The position numbers and the translations under genes are program-made. DNA of 64,000 nt from the NCBI RefSeq assembly GCF_900108505.1, contig NZ_FNWU01000001.1:434001-498000 (forward strand). The letters run 5' to 3'. The notes below the pieces were generated by a model. The model made no database searches. It was not told the origin of the DNA and saw only the letters and a list, made by a program, of their open reading frames with translations. This document shows, piece by piece, positions 2,820 to 15,451 of this stretch (positions are counted from its first letter, which is position 1; each line of letters starts with the position of its first letter). The stretch is from Halopenitus malekzadehii (GTDB lineage: Archaea; Halobacteriota; Halobacteria; Halobacteriales; Haloferacaceae).

Positions 2820-4037
2820 TTACGCGAACGCGACCGAGTCGCCGACGTCGGCCTCGTCGGTCTGCTCGAGCTTCTCGTGGGCGTCCTCGAAGTCGGCCAT
2901 CGTCACCTCGGTCCGGTCGTCGCGGATCGCGAACATCCCGGCCTCGGTACAGATCGCCTTGATGTCGGCGCCGGACGCGTCGGAGATGGTCTCCGCGAGC
3001 TCGTCGAAGTCGACGTCGTCGGCGACGTTCATCTTGCGGGTGTGGATACGGAAGATGATCTCCCGTCCTGCGGCGTCGGGTTTGGGGACCTCGATGAGTC
3101 GATCGAAGCGCCCGGGCCGGAGGATCGCCTCGTCGAGCATATCGAACCGGTTGGTCGCGGCGATGATGCGGACCTCCCCGCGATCCTCGAAGCCGTCCAT
3201 CTCGGAGAGCAACTGCATCATCGTCCGCTGGACCTCGGCGTCGCCGGAGGTCTTTGAGTCGGTACGCTTGGAGGCGATGGCGTCGATCTCGTCGATGAAG
3301 ATCACCGCGGGCTCGTTCTCGCGGGCGACCTCGAAGAGATCGCGGACGAGCTTGGCACCCTCGCCGATGAACTTGTGGACCAGCTCGGATCCGGCCATCT
3401 TGATGAAGGAGGCGTCGGTCTGGTTGGCGACGGCCTTCGCGAGCATCGTCTTGCCGGTGCCCGGCGGCCCGTGCAACAGAACGCCGCTCGGCGGCTGAAT
3501 CCCGACGTCATCGAACGCTTCGGGTCGTTCGAGGGGCATCTCGACGGTTTCACGAACCTCGGTGAGCTGGTCGTCCAGGCCGCCGATGTCCTCGTAGGTG
3601 ACGTCCGGCGAGTGGTCGACCTGCATCACGCGGGCGCGGACGTCGGTCTCCTTCTCGAGCCGTTTGACCACGGACAGGGAGTTGTTGACCGCGACGCGGT
3701 CGTCGGGAGTCAGGTCCTCGCGCATCTCCTCTGTGACCTCGGTGAGCGCCTCCTGGTTGTTGCCGTGCTGTTTGATCACGACGCCGTCGTCGGTCAGCTC
3801 CTGGACGGTGGCGACGAACAGCGGCGACTGCTTCAGCTTCTTGTTCTCGTGGGTGAGCCGTTCGAGCTTCTGTTGATACTTGTTGTTCTCGGCGTTCGCG
3901 TCGAGGAGACGGTCGCGCATCTCCTCGTTTTGCGACTCGAGGATCTCGAGTCTGTCCTCGAGCACCTCGATCTTCTCCTGTTGCGACGTCGAATCCTCGT
4001 CATAAGGCATCTCGACGTCGTCCACAGTATCGGTCAT
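2820..4037 (-). CDS. pan: Proteasome-activating nucleotidase (PAN), AAA+ ATPase
   Basis: The 405-aa protein is the archaeal 19S-like unfoldase that feeds substrates to the 20S proteasome. It has an N-terminal coiled coil (about residues 20-75), an OB-like domain (about 75-150) and a AAA domain with Walker A GPPGTGKT, Walker B VIFIDEIDAI, sensor/second-region ATNRFD and arginine-finger region RPGRFDR. The C-terminus is SVAFA, so the penultimate position of the proteasome-docking HbYX-type tail is Phe rather than Tyr. Haloarchaea usually carry two PAN paralogues and I cannot say which one this is. Start is the ATG at 4035-4037; a TATA-like TTAG lies near 4064. Confidence 0.95.
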   Translation of the reverse strand: MTDTVDDVEMPYDEDSTSQQEKIEVLEDRLEILESQNEEMRDRLLDANAENNKYQQKLERLTHENKKLKQSPLFVATVQELTDDGVVIKQHGNNQEALTEVTEEMREDLTPDDRVAVNNSLSVVKRLEKETDVRARVMQVDHSPDVTYEDIGGLDDQLTEVRETVEMPLERPEAFDDVGIQPPSGVLLHGPPGTGKTMLAKAVANQTDASFIKMAGSELVHKFIGEGAKLVRDLFEVARENEPAVIFIDEIDAIASKRTDSKTSGDAEVQRTMMQLLSEMDGFEDRGEVRIIAATNRFDMLDEAILRPGRFDRLIEVPKPDAAGREIIFRIHTRKMNVADDVDFDELAETISDASGADIKAICTEAGMFAIRDDRTEVTMADFEDAHEKLEQTDEADVGDSVAFA

Positions 4038-10366: not shown

Positions 10367-13300
10367 ATGACGCAGACGGGGCTCTCCGAGTTCTCACCCG
10401 ACGGGGACGCCGCCACCGACGCGACCGGCGGGGACGGCGACGGCCGATCGGCCGACGTCGTTCGCGAGGAGGCGCGCGTCGTGGCCGGCGGTGGCGGCGG
10501 CCACGTCAACGACGTGATCGATGTCGACGACGCGAAGTTCCCCGACTCGACGGGAACCGTCGAGTTGGCGGTCACACAGGTCGATTACGCCGTCGAGGGG
10601 CGCGGCAGCGACGAGTATCCCGTCGTCCACGTGTTCGGACGGCGGCCGAATCCCGACGGGGAGGACGTCCGCGAACACCTCCGCGTGCTCGGGGTCGAGC
10701 CCTACTTCTACGTGCCGACGACCGACCTCGATCGCGACCCCGTCGACGAGTACGACGTCGTGATCGGGACCCGGGAGTCGGACGCCAACGACGTCGCCTA
10801 CGAGAGCATCCGGGGCGAGCCGCTCACCCGGATCGTGACCCGGACGCCGCGTGACGTCGGGAACATCCGTGACGACTTCGAGACGACCTTCGAGGCCGAC
10901 ATCCTGTTCCCCAACCGCTTCCTGATCGACAACGGGATCGCCGGTGGACTCCGTGTCGAGGAACGACGGCTCGAGGACGGCCGGATCCAGGTCGCCGAGG
11001 AGCATCTCGAGCCGGCCGACGTCGAGGCCGACGTTCGGGTGAACACCTTCGACATCGAGGTCGACGACCGGCGGGGATTCCCGGAGGACGGCGAGGAACC
11101 GATCGTCTGTTTGACCAGCCACGACTCCTACGACGACGAGTACGTCGTCTGGCTCTACGAGGCCCCCGACGGCGAGACGATCCCGCCAGAGGATCTACCG
11201 GGATATGAGGGGATCGAGGAGGGCGGTATCGACGCCCGCGTCGAGTCCTTCGGGACCGAGGAGGCGATGCTGGCGGCGTTCATCGACTACCTCAACGAGA
11301 CCGACCCCGACGTCCTCTGCGGGTGGAACTTCGAGGACTTCGACGCGCCCTATCTCCTCGATCGTCTCGAACGGCTCGACTCCCGGACCGATCACGACCT
11401 CTCGGTTGATCGCCTCTCGCGGATCGGCGAAGTCTGGCGGTCCGGGTGGGGCGGTCCGGACATCAAGGGTCGAGTCGTCTTCGACCTGCTGTACGCCTAC
11501 AAGCGCACGCAGTTCACCGAACTCGAGTCCTACCGGCTCGACGCCGTCGGGGAGACGGAACTCGATGTCGGCAAGGAACGGTACGCCGGCGACATCGGCG
11601 ACCTCTGGGAACAGGACCCGGAACGCCTCCTCGAGTACAACCTGCGCGACGTCGAGCTCTGCGTGGAGATCGACCGCAAACAGAACCTGATCGACTTCTG
11701 GAACGAGGTGAAGAAGTTCGTCGGCTGCAAACTCGAGGACGCACCGACGCCTGGCGACGCGGTCGACGTCTACGTCCTGCACAAGGCCCACGGCAAGTTC
11801 GCGCTCCCGACGAAGGGCCAACAGGAGTCCGAGGAGTTCGAGGGCGGGGCCGTCTTCGACCCGATCTCCGGGGTGAAGGAGATGGTGACCGTACTAGATT
11901 TGAAGTCACTCTATCCTATGTGCATGGTGACGATCAACGCGGGCCCGGAGACGAAGGTCGATCCCGACGAATACGACGGCGAGACGTACCTGGCGCCCAA
12001 CGGGACCCACTTCCGCAAGGAGCCGGACGGCATTATGCGCGAGATGGTCGACGAGCTCCTCTCCGAGCGGGAGCGGAAGAAGGAGCTCCGCAACGACCAC
12101 GATCCGGGCTCACAACCGTACGCGCAGTACGACCGTCAGCAGGCAGCTGTCAAGGTGATTATGAACTGTTTCACGCCGGACACCGATGTACTCACGCCAA
12201 ACGGCGTGCGGTCGATCACGGATCTCGCGGTCGGCGACGAGGTCTACTCCCTTGATCCGGACACGATGCGGATGGAGGTCAAGCCGGTCACGGAGACGCA
12301 CGCGTATCCGGAGTACCGCGGCGACCTCGTGAACATGGAGACCTCGAAGATCGACCTCAGCGTGACTCCGAACCACCGGATGCTCGTTCGCAAGAACGAG
12401 ACGAATGGGATCACCGAGGAGGACTACCGGTTCGTCGAGGCCGGCGATCTCGATCGCGCGACGAACTACGAACTGCCGCACGACTGGAACGGCCCGGACG
12501 ACGAACCGATCGAGGAGGTGGACCTCACGGAACTGCTCGACGGCGAGTACGAGGTGTGGGTCCGGCCGGAAGTACACGGACACACCTTCACCGCCGAGCT
12601 CGGTTGGACGCCCCGGCGCGTCCCGAAGGCAGATCTCGGGCAGGTCGGCTACGTCTTTACTGCCGAGGAGTTCGAGGAGCACCGCGAGTACATCGAGTCG
12701 GTCTGTGAGACGAGCTTCATCCACCGCGAATCCGGTCGAAAGTGGATCCCACGGACCTACGACGGCGACGACTTCCTCGACCTGTTGGCGTGGTATATCA
12801 CGGAGGGGAACGTCTACACGTCCGAGGAGAGGTCGTTCGGGGACCACCACCGCGGATCCGCGACGACCGTGAAGATCGCCCAGAACGCGATCCCCGACGG
12901 CGGCGGTCATCACGCAGCGATCGGCGATCTGCTCGACGGAATGGGGTTCGACTGCTACGTCGACGACCGTGCCCACCAGTTCACGTCGACACTTCTCGGT
13001 GGGCTGCTTCGGGACCGCTGTGGCAGCGACAGCTTCGACAAGCGGATCCCCGAGTTCGTCTTCGAGGTAAGCACGGAACAGAAGCGGCGGTTCCTCGAGA
13101 CGCTCATCGACGGCGACGGGGATCGACAACCTAACTCGTGGCGCTATACGACTTCGAGCGACCGGCTTCGGGACGACGTGCTTCGGCTCTGTGCGCACCT
13201 GGGGCTGACGGCGAAGTACGCCCGCGACAGCGGGAGTTGGCGGATCTATGGGAACGAAGGCGCGAAGAACACGCTTCGGATGCACCGGAGCGGATCGCGG

Positions 13301-14374
13301 AGCACGGCCGACGACGGTGTCTACTGCGTCACGATCGCCGACAACCACACGCTCCTCGCCGGCCGAAACGGAACGTTCCAGTTCGTCGGCCAATCGCTGT
13401 ACGGCGTGACGGGGTGGGATCGGTTCCGACTCTACGACAAGGAAGGCGCAGCGGCCGTGACGGCGACGGGACGTGAGGTGATTTCCTTCACGGAGGAGGC
13501 GGCGTCGGAACTTGATATGAAGGTGACATATGGGGATACTGACAGCATTATGTTGGAGCTCGGACAGGAAACCGGAGTCGAGTCCGCCATCGAGACGTCC
13601 TTCTCGATCGAGGACCACATCAACGGCCGCTACGACGACTTCGCGCGCGAGGAGTTGAACGCCGAGATGCACCGTTTCCAGATCGAGTTCGAGAAGCTCT
13701 ACCGGCGCTTCTTCCAGGCGGGACGCAAGAAGCGATACGCCGGCCACATCGTCTGGAAGGAGGGGAAGGACGTCGACGACATCGACATCACCGGCTTCGA
13801 GTACAAGCGATCGGACATCGCGCCGATCACGAAGGAGGTGCAAAAACACGTCATCGAGACGATCGTCACCGGGGACGACATCGAGGCGGACATCGCCGAC
13901 ATCAAGACGTACCTCTCGGACGTCATCGAGGACTTCCTCACCGGGGAGGTGGACCTCGACGAGATCGGCATTCCGGGCGGAATCGGGAAGCGACTCGACG
14001 CCTACGAGACCGACACCGCGCAGGTTCGGGGAGCGAAATACGCCAACCTGCTGCTCGGCACGAACTTCGATCGCGGTTCGAAACCGAAACGGCTCTATCT
14101 CGAGACGGTCCACCCCGACTTCTGGCGACGGATGGAGGACGAACGCGGGCTCGATCCCCACACCGATCCCCTGTACGGCGAGTTCAAACGCGATCCAGAC
14201 GTGATCTGCTATGAGTACGCCGACGAGATCCCCGAGGAGTTCACGATCGACTGGGAGCTGATGCTCGAGAAGACGTTGAAGGGGCCGATATCCCGGGTGA
14301 TCGAGGCCCTCGGAATGAGTTGGGACGAGATCAAGACCGGTCAAGAGCAAAGCGGTCTCGGACAGTTCATGTGA
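10367..14374 (+). CDS. polB: Family B replicative DNA polymerase with an intein
   Basis: The 1335-aa precursor has an exonuclease domain with Exo I FDIEVD (residues 228-233), Exo II GWNFEDFDAPYL and Exo III YNLRDVELC. The polymerase motifs are motif A DLKSLYP (about 511-517), motif B KVIMN/SLYG and motif C YGDTDS (1055-1060). An intein of 409 aa interrupts motif B exactly between Asn600 and Ser1010. Removing it leaves a 926-aa polymerase of normal family length. The N-terminal 50 residues are an acidic, glycine-rich extension. Start is chosen from the TATA box. The DNA at motifs A, B and C is unusually AT-rich in codon choice compared with the rest of the gene. Confidence 0.97.
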   Translation: MTQTGLSEFSPDGDAATDATGGDGDGRSADVVREEARVVAGGGGGHVNDVIDVDDAKFPDSTGTVELAVTQVDYAVEGRGSDEYPVVHVFGRRPNPDGEDVREHLRVLGVEPYFYVPTTDLDRDPVDEYDVVIGTRESDANDVAYESIRGEPLTRIVTRTPRDVGNIRDDFETTFEADILFPNRFLIDNGIAGGLRVEERRLEDGRIQVAEEHLEPADVEADVRVNTFDIEVDDRRGFPEDGEEPIVCLTSHDSYDDEYVVWLYEAPDGETIPPEDLPGYEGIEEGGIDARVESFGTEEAMLAAFIDYLNETDPDVLCGWNFEDFDAPYLLDRLERLDSRTDHDLSVDRLSRIGEVWRSGWGGPDIKGRVVFDLLYAYKRTQFTELESYRLDAVGETELDVGKERYAGDIGDLWEQDPERLLEYNLRDVELCVEIDRKQNLIDFWNEVKKFVGCKLEDAPTPGDAVDVYVLHKAHGKFALPTKGQQESEEFEGGAVFDPISGVKEMVTVLDLKSLYPMCMVTINAGPETKVDPDEYDGETYLAPNGTHFRKEPDGIMREMVDELLSERERKKELRNDHDPGSQPYAQYDRQQAAVKVIMNCFTPDTDVLTPNGVRSITDLAVGDEVYSLDPDTMRMEVKPVTETHAYPEYRGDLVNMETSKIDLSVTPNHRMLVRKNETNGITEEDYRFVEAGDLDRATNYELPHDWNGPDDEPIEEVDLTELLDGEYEVWVRPEVHGHTFTAELGWTPRRVPKADLGQVGYVFTAEEFEEHREYIESVCETSFIHRESGRKWIPRTYDGDDFLDLLAWYITEGNVYTSEERSFGDHHRGSATTVKIAQNAIPDGGGHHAAIGDLLDGMGFDCYVDDRAHQFTSTLLGGLLRDRCGSDSFDKRIPEFVFEVSTEQKRRFLETLIDGDGDRQPNSWRYTTSSDRLRDDVLRLCAHLGLTAKYARDSGSWRIYGNEGAKNTLRMHRSGSRSTADDGVYCVTIADNHTLLAGRNGTFQFVGQSLYGVTGWDRFRLYDKEGAAAVTATGREVISFTEEAASELDMKVTYGDTDSIMLELGQETGVESAIETSFSIEDHINGRYDDFAREELNAEMHRFQIEFEKLYRRFFQAGRKKRYAGHIVWKEGKDVDDIDITGFEYKRSDIAPITKEVQKHVIETIVTGDDIEADIADIKTYLSDVIEDFLTGEVDLDEIGIPGGIGKRLDAYETDTAQVRGAKYANLLLGTNFDRGSKPKRLYLETVHPDFWRRMEDERGLDPHTDPLYGEFKRDPDVICYEYADEIPEEFTIDWELMLEKTLKGPISRVIEALGMSWDEIKTGQEQSGLGQFM
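12167..13393 (+). mobile_element. Intein with LAGLIDADG homing endonuclease, inserted in polB motif B
   Basis: The 409-aa intein starts at Cys (CFTPDTDVLTPNG) and is followed by Ser of SLYG. Splicing block B has SVTPNHRML with the conserved Thr and His. Endonuclease motifs are LLAWYITEGN and FLETLIDGDGD; both acidic catalytic residues are present, so the endonuclease looks intact. Block F is VTIADNHTLLAG. Block G is FQFVGQ: the penultimate residue is Gly rather than His, and the last residue is Gln rather than Asn. Gln-terminated inteins are known in other archaeal polymerases and can splice through a modified cyclisation step. Confidence 0.93.
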
Positions 14375-14527: not shown

Positions 14528-15451
14528 ATGGCAACTCTTGAGATCAATAACCTCCACGCCGAAGTGGCAGAAGAGGGCGGAGAACAGATACTCCGTGGCG
14601 TCGACCTGGAGGTCGCCTCCGGGGAGATCCACGCACTGATGGGCCCGAACGGCTCCGGAAAGTCGACGACCGCGAAGGTCATCGCCGGCCACCCGGCCTA
14701 CGAGGTCACCGACGGCGAGATCGTGCTCGAACTCGACGAGGAGGACGTCGACGACATCGACGTCGAGCTCTCCGAGTCGGATTACCGGTGGAACCTCCTC
14801 GATATGGAGCCGAACGAGCGCGCAGCGCTCGGCATCTTCCTCGGCTTCCAGTATCCGGCGGAGATCGAGGGCGTCACGATGACGAACTTCCTCCGACAGG
14901 CGATCAACGCGAAACACGACGAGCGCCAGGAGCTCTTCGCGGACGAGGCCGACCTCGACGAGGCCGCAGACGAGGACGAGGACGCGGGCTATGAGACCTC
15001 CCCGATGGAGGGGCCCGCCGACGACGGCGAGATCGGCGTCGCCGAGTTCCAGGAGCTGCTCACGGCGAAGATGGAGCTGCTCGACATGGACGAGAAGTTC
15101 ATGCAGCGATACCTCAACGCCGGATTCTCCGGCGGCGAGAAGAAGCAGAACGAGGTCCTGCAGGCCGCGCTGCTCGAGCCGGCGATCGCTGTCCTCGACG
15201 AGATCGACTCGGGGCTCGACATCGATCGCCTCCAGGACGTCTCGGAGGGCATCAACGCGCTTCGGGACGAGCAGGGTACCGGAATCCTCCAGATCACCCA
15301 CTATCAGCGCATCCTCGACTACGTCGAGCCCGACCACGTGCACGTGATGCTCGACGGGAAGATCGCGAAAAGCGGCGGCGCGGAGTTGGCGACCGAACTC
15401 GAGGACGAGGGGTACGACTGGGTCCGCGAGGAAGCCTACGAGGCGGCGTAA
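14528..15451 (+). CDS. sufC: Fe-S cluster assembly ATPase SufC
   Basis: The 307-aa ABC ATPase has Walker A GPNGSGKST, signature FSGGEKKQNEVLQ, Walker B AVLDEIDSGLD and the H-loop QITHYQRIL. It is longer than typical bacterial SufC (about 250 aa) because of a very acidic insertion at about residues 140-168, usual for haloarchaea. It powers the SufBCD scaffold that builds iron-sulfur clusters in the cytoplasm. It is the first gene of a sufC-sufB-sufD cluster; no cysteine desulfurase gene is nearby. Confidence 0.96.
   Translation: MATLEINNLHAEVAEEGGEQILRGVDLEVASGEIHALMGPNGSGKSTTAKVIAGHPAYEVTDGEIVLELDEEDVDDIDVELSESDYRWNLLDMEPNERAALGIFLGFQYPAEIEGVTMTNFLRQAINAKHDERQELFADEADLDEAADEDEDAGYETSPMEGPADDGEIGVAEFQELLTAKMELLDMDEKFMQRYLNAGFSGGEKKQNEVLQAALLEPAIAVLDEIDSGLDIDRLQDVSEGINALRDEQGTGILQITHYQRILDYVEPDHVHVMLDGKIAKSGGAELATELEDEGYDWVREEAYEAA

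Follow-up and report, generated by a model that had tools for sequence, protein, structure and literature searches.

Codon choice and rapid silent change at intein insertion sites in haloarchaeal replication genes, with a possible origin in intein homing

The window analysed here is a stretch of 64,000 nucleotides from the archaeon Halopenitus malekzadehii (contig NZ_FNWU01000001.1 of assembly GCF_900108505.1, positions 434,001 to 498,000 of the forward strand), in which the polB gene, encoding a family B DNA polymerase, is interrupted by one intein. The gene starts with the ATG at 10367 and has 1335 codons with the intein, while the extein comprises 926 codons and has a GC3 of 0.867. The features of the locus are given below, with a slash marking the insertion point within each motif.

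10367-14374, + strand: polB, family B DNA polymerase, from the open reading frame and its translation (Pfam DNA_pol_B, 1.9e-42; DNA_pol_B_exo1, 2.6e-23)
11891-11917, + strand: motif A patch around an empty intein site, junction 11905/11906 (LDLK/SLYP), with 6 of 9 codons A/T-ending
12143-12166, + strand: weakly A/T-ending codons just before the occupied motif B site (KVIMN/S; junctions 12166/12167 and 13393/13394)
12167-13393, + strand: intein at the motif B site KVIMN/S, 409 aa, from Cys1 to a C-terminal Gln, from Pfam and NCBIfam matches
13076-13249, + strand: core of a LAGLIDADG homing endonuclease, intein residues 304-361 (Pfam LAGLIDADG_3, 8.9e-7)
13394-13426, + strand: extein flank to the right of the occupied site at motif B, from sequence comparison
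13502-13573, + strand: motif C patch around an empty intein site, junction 13537/13538 (YGD/TDS), from the count of A/T-ending codons

The intein begins with a Hint domain (Pfam Hint_2, 1.1e-9, and Hint, 6e-7; NCBIfam TIGR01445 intein_Nterm, 1.1e-6), and its nearest relative is the intein of a congener, with which it is 88% identical. The canonical C-terminal His-Asn before Cys, Ser or Thr is not found in it, and it ends instead in FVGQ/S, with Gln in place of Asn and the +1 Ser present. As Gln is a known non-canonical intein ending, the missing His-Asn does not disqualify it. The intein is predicted to contain an endonuclease domain, the presence of which is in itself no proof of activity. 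The other two sites of this gene, at motifs A and C, are empty.

A sequence-only reading of the gene had described A/T-ending patches at its three conserved motifs, in positions that proved correct. The enrichment itself held up at motifs A and C, each at the border of significance, and was weak at motif B. The patches at A and C (up to 9 of 18 scorable codons about the insertion point at C) rank among the A/T-densest windows of the extein, with within-gene rank p-values of 0.004 for motif A (±5 codons) and 0.003 for motif C (±10 codons). When the same gene was shuffled, the 95th percentile of the maximum was 6 in a 9-codon window and 7 in an 11-codon window; because a shuffled gene attains similar maxima in about 5% of cases, each of these two patches is borderline when taken alone. 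At motif B the enrichment was not significant (within-gene rank p = 0.27-0.68), and a joint test over the three sites of the gene gave p = 0.003-0.014.

Searching 391 Halobacteria, we aligned 170 polB genes, a sample deliberately enriched for occupied genes, in which 24 carried an intein at site A, 94 at site B and 48 at site C, and 54 had none at any of the three. These genomes are related and not phylogenetically independent, so all p-values are to be taken as indicative. The insertions were found exactly at LDLK/S, MN/S and YGD/T, and the insertion points within the Halopenitus patches are thus fixed by the inteins that other genomes carry at those very codons (24 of 170 at A and 48 of 170 at C), as the sequence-only reading had supposed. 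Judging by their N-to-C order and frequency, the three sites are probably the polB-a, -b and -c sites of PMC4071816. The occupied site B of the window reads AAC/TCG, as in most occupied alleles; the +1 codon at its empty site A is TCA (usually TCG in occupied alleles) and that at its empty site C is ACT (usually ACC). The empty site B of the congener Hpn. persicus reads AAT/TCT.

Across the class, the A/T-ending excess was corrected for the amino acid and for the mean of each gene and is given as a residual. The polB profile of the 170 genomes has two peaks, one of about +0.14 around site B and one of +0.26 around site C in intein-free genes, the latter being the maximum of the whole profile, and no class-wide peak was found at site A. 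The comparison of haloarchaea with and without inteins, codon by codon, thus upheld an excess at B and C as a property of the class; at A the residual over all genomes is only about +0.02, and the A/T excess there is a property of the window gene itself. At site C, an A/T-ending excess is present in 114 of 122 empty alleles, and the residual is +0.245 in empty alleles against +0.100 in occupied ones, a difference far outside that of control windows. The effect recurs at the insertion sites of other haloarchaeal genes. Among MCM genes, 30 without inteins have their highest value (+0.25) at the insertion site in Walker A and reach +0.13 at the second site; in 20 intein-free DP2 genes there is a peak of up to +0.18 around the main insertion site; and RFC has its maximum (+0.078) at Walker A, the motif in which rfc-a inteins usually sit and from which we take the insertion coordinate, occupied RFC loci being incomplete in the sample. 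The occupied samples of MCM and DP2 were small, with 10 genes each. For intein-free alleles at nine sites in the four genes polB, MCM, DP2 and RFC, a circular-shift test for peaks at insertion sites gave p = 5e-5. Sites of low occupancy (polB A and DP2 986) have little or zero excess, and the affected zone extends for about 12 codons on either side of the insertion sites.

Every one of the insertion sites lies within an active-site motif, which would be expected if the excess were unrelated to inteins and the catalytic motifs of replication proteins used rare codons for reasons of slow translation or mRNA, with inteins simply sharing these motifs. We consider this explanation highly improbable. 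Seven non-intein controls (Rad50, SufB, SufC, SufD, PAN, RadA, and EF-2) have no such internal peak, their highest internal values being just 0.035-0.095, and RadA, PAN, Rad50, and SufC are flat at their P-loops (-0.035 to +0.004), whereas the P-loops of MCM and RFC carry the excess. It was likewise not seen in the other invariant blocks of polB and MCM, and the +1 codon varies with occupancy (discussed below). A cluster of rare codons for pausing at P-loops or catalytic motifs was ruled out on the values of the control P-loops.

The silent sites in the insertion motifs also turn over fastest, while the protein is unchanged. Counting only synonymous differences, with correction for the amino acid, 628 close pairs of polB have hot spots of 2.03, 2.90, and 3.55 times the expectation at sites A, B, and C and are near baseline outside them, so that the three synonymous hot spots of polB coincide exactly with its three intein sites. 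Synonymous identity is lowest in the gene at B and C and has a local minimum at A; at site C it is 0.43 between close relatives and 0.42 between distant ones, whereas elsewhere close pairs are mostly at 0.80-0.90. The suggestion that the patches are DNA held constant as the target of a homing endonuclease fails on these values, and a conserved nucleotide element was ruled out in the same way. In a second set of 75 named polB genes, from which inserts of more than 150 aa are absent and which overlaps in part with the 170-genome sample, the top windows were again C (0.52) and B (0.41); the acceleration at site A was absent from these intein-free genes, though synonymous divergence there is doubled in the 170-genome set. 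The top windows of MCM and RFC lie at or near insertion sites, and so do those of DP2 if a variable acidic stretch is disregarded.

Several observations connect the flanks with the inteins themselves. The +1 codon is more uniform in occupied alleles, being TCG in 18 of 24 occupied against 57 of 146 other alleles at site A (p = 0.0015), TCG in 61 of 94 against 35 of 76 empty alleles at site B (p = 0.019), and ACC in 39 of 48 against 66 of 122 empty alleles at site C (p = 0.0014). At all three sites, an altered target is therefore commoner among unoccupied alleles, in a test without full phylogenetic correction. With the background removed, flank similarity follows intein similarity (partial rho of -0.23 at B and -0.30 at C, compared to -0.10 and -0.04 in control windows), although the effect is modest and the pairs are not independent. 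Among close pairs, those with differing occupancy show the largest differences at the flank, and at site A long rare-codon haplotypes are common to 65 pairs of distant genomes, compared to 1.2 expected and 8-24 in control windows. The motif A patch of the window has its best non-congeneric match in L073, a genome of another genus in which the A intein is present and with which it has GTACTAGATTTGAAG and TAT in common; L088, which is without the A intein, is nearly as close. The rare codons GTA, GAT, TTG, and TAT of the patch are common to L073 and L088, and CTA is found in L073 as well. From this comparison, the motif A patch is possibly a circulating flank haplotype.

One alternative is co-conversion alone. 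Each gain or loss of an intein would swap a short flank from another lineage into the gene, leaving a patchwork of donors with no selection for resistance, and codon preference would erode because flanks spread with the drive whatever the quality of their codons. Besides the coupling of flank and intein similarity, the mixed-occupancy pairs and the strong haplotype sharing at site A, the co-conversion of flanking residues described for MCM-d (PMC10643990) speaks for it. However, long haplotypes shared between distant genomes are no commoner at sites B and C than in control windows, and at site C the A/T-ending excess is greater in alleles that lack the intein than in those that carry it, which is the reverse of hitchhiking with a drive. 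The proposal of the sequence-only reading that the patches are co-conversion scars is thus carried by the flanks and the mixed-occupancy pairs, but a simple scar fails at site C, as it is the alleles without an intein that are the most recoded there. We regard co-conversion alone as rather unlikely.

The acceleration is also present in close pairs in which both sites are empty, and the zone around the sites is narrow. Both would fit with mutagenesis by break repair, in which error-prone repair closes the cuts that homing leaves open, so that mutations become more frequent nearby and are biased towards A/T. Against this, A- and T-ending codons are both increased on either side of the site and lack the strand asymmetry that deamination of resected ends should leave; some flanks also gain G-ending codons at the expense of C-ending ones. 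Furthermore, in general theory a higher mutation rate alone leaves equilibrium codon use unaltered. We therefore view break-repair mutagenesis as a very unlikely source of the pattern. Strand-asymmetric deamination around a break was rejected as well, as its pattern is not seen in the flanks.

On balance, we favor the explanation that the patches are a local footprint of intein homing on the host gene, recoded empty alleles included. Homing endonucleases circulating in haloarchaea would cut empty insertion sites, and repair would copy in the intein together with a short donor flank, so that short flanks are replaced at gain and loss. Alleles whose silent sites are mismatched to the target would be cut less and remain empty. 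Repeated over the class, this would make the 25-70 bp about each heavily used site turn over faster at silent positions than the rest of the gene; codon preference would be eroded there, and empty alleles would become enriched for non-standard codons with an unchanged protein sequence. The coupling of flanks to inteins would be explained by co-conversion, and since the intein-free alleles at site C are the most recoded, co-conversion by itself is insufficient, which suggests filtering or selection for altered targets. We infer from the sequences that the recoding lowers cutting and is itself driven by it.

Homing of a haloarchaeal polB intein has been demonstrated in Haloferax (PMC3024317), and work cited there indicates that homing endonucleases tolerate single synonymous changes. 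MCM endonucleases of Hfx. mediterranei are reported to cleave the target of Hfx. volcanii although it differs at several, mostly synonymous positions (PMC10643990). As single changes are tolerated, resistance would need many changes together; several accumulated changes are seen here, which is no proof. Several observations count against the homing explanation or its resistance component: alleles at site B are A/T-ending to the same degree whether occupied or empty, and close pairs that are both occupied still differ strongly there; site A is accelerated in the 170-genome set only, and lacks the class-wide A/T excess; and the motif C patch is kept within Halopenitus. Weighing these, we believe that homing is very probably the cause of the pattern, with roughly even chances that resistance-like recoding is a major component. 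A wider reading is a class-wide natural gene-drive arms race, with diversifying selection at the silent positions of the targets, empty alleles acting as functional resistance alleles, and codon usage revealing past and present homing targets; this we offer tentatively, as somewhat less probable than its opposite.

Related systems provide some context for these results. The WHO elements of Torulaspora and Lachancea yeasts home into FBA1 (PMC7282813), and as in the haloarchaeal case an essential gene is the target, nuclease-sensitive and nuclease-resistant alleles exist, and host coding sequence at the target is repeatedly replaced. In contrast to haloarchaeal inteins, which interrupt the gene, WHO elements adjoin it and carry a replacement 3' end, and the haloarchaeal change is confined to a short zone at the codon level, in element-free alleles across a whole class. 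Similar, too, are the functional resistance alleles that arise against synthetic homing gene drives, in that the target is altered, the protein preserved and such alleles enriched among those that are unconverted, but the haloarchaeal case is natural and reduced cutting in it is inferred. The MCM-a and MCM-d inteins of Haloferacales match the MCM genes analysed here in gene family, class of host, and sites of insertion, and PMC10643990 treats co-conversion of flanking codons and discusses resistant alleles. Resistance there is an amino-acid effect, however, in which a proline at +1 blocks splicing and not cutting, and no synonymous or codon-usage signature for MCM-a or MCM-d is described in the accessible part of that paper. 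For the haloarchaeal polB inteins, with the same three insertion sites and host class and with homing active in Hfx. volcanii, PMC3024317 and PMC4071816 in their accessible parts treat the presence, absence, and activity of the inteins rather than the silent-site evolution of their flanks.

Location in conserved motifs is commonly taken to make homing targets durable. Here the protein is indeed conserved, but no other silent sequence of the gene changes as fast as the target DNA. For dating or phylogeny, silent positions within motifs of this kind are accordingly not neutral markers. If homing drives the pattern, it would be a long-running natural experiment on gene-drive resistance in essential genes, codon usage alone could serve to locate homing targets and to gauge how far they were exposed in the past, and the testable claim would be that recoded empty sites are cut less.

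Scans of viral contigs using either the polB exons or the intein as query gave zero matches, and a profile search yielded only distant viral PolBs of 35-42% identity on ten viral contigs (L449-L458), leaving an A/T-rich viral donor unsupported. One genome (L379 C27:70500-78500; L369 C21; L391 C27:317029) has an MCM gene with three inteins of 177, 523, and 649 aa, a DP2 gene with a mini-intein of 228 aa, and an RFC frame of 1110 aa that suggests RFC inteins too. In two further cases (G161:C6 and G366:C112), the match to polB breaks in two inside its C-terminal part, and one of the two has an internal stop; these are possibly a rarer fourth insertion site or broken genes. Close to polB in the window lies a gene for a PAN-type AAA ATPase (proteasome-activating nucleotidase; 2820-4037, - strand), and no A/T-ending excess was found at the P-loop in the PAN family alignment. 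The first 15 or so codons of PAN and of SufC, SufB, and SufD (starts at 14528, 15503, and 16929) are strongly A/T-ending class-wide, with residuals of +0.20 to +0.30, probably as a 5' initiation effect.
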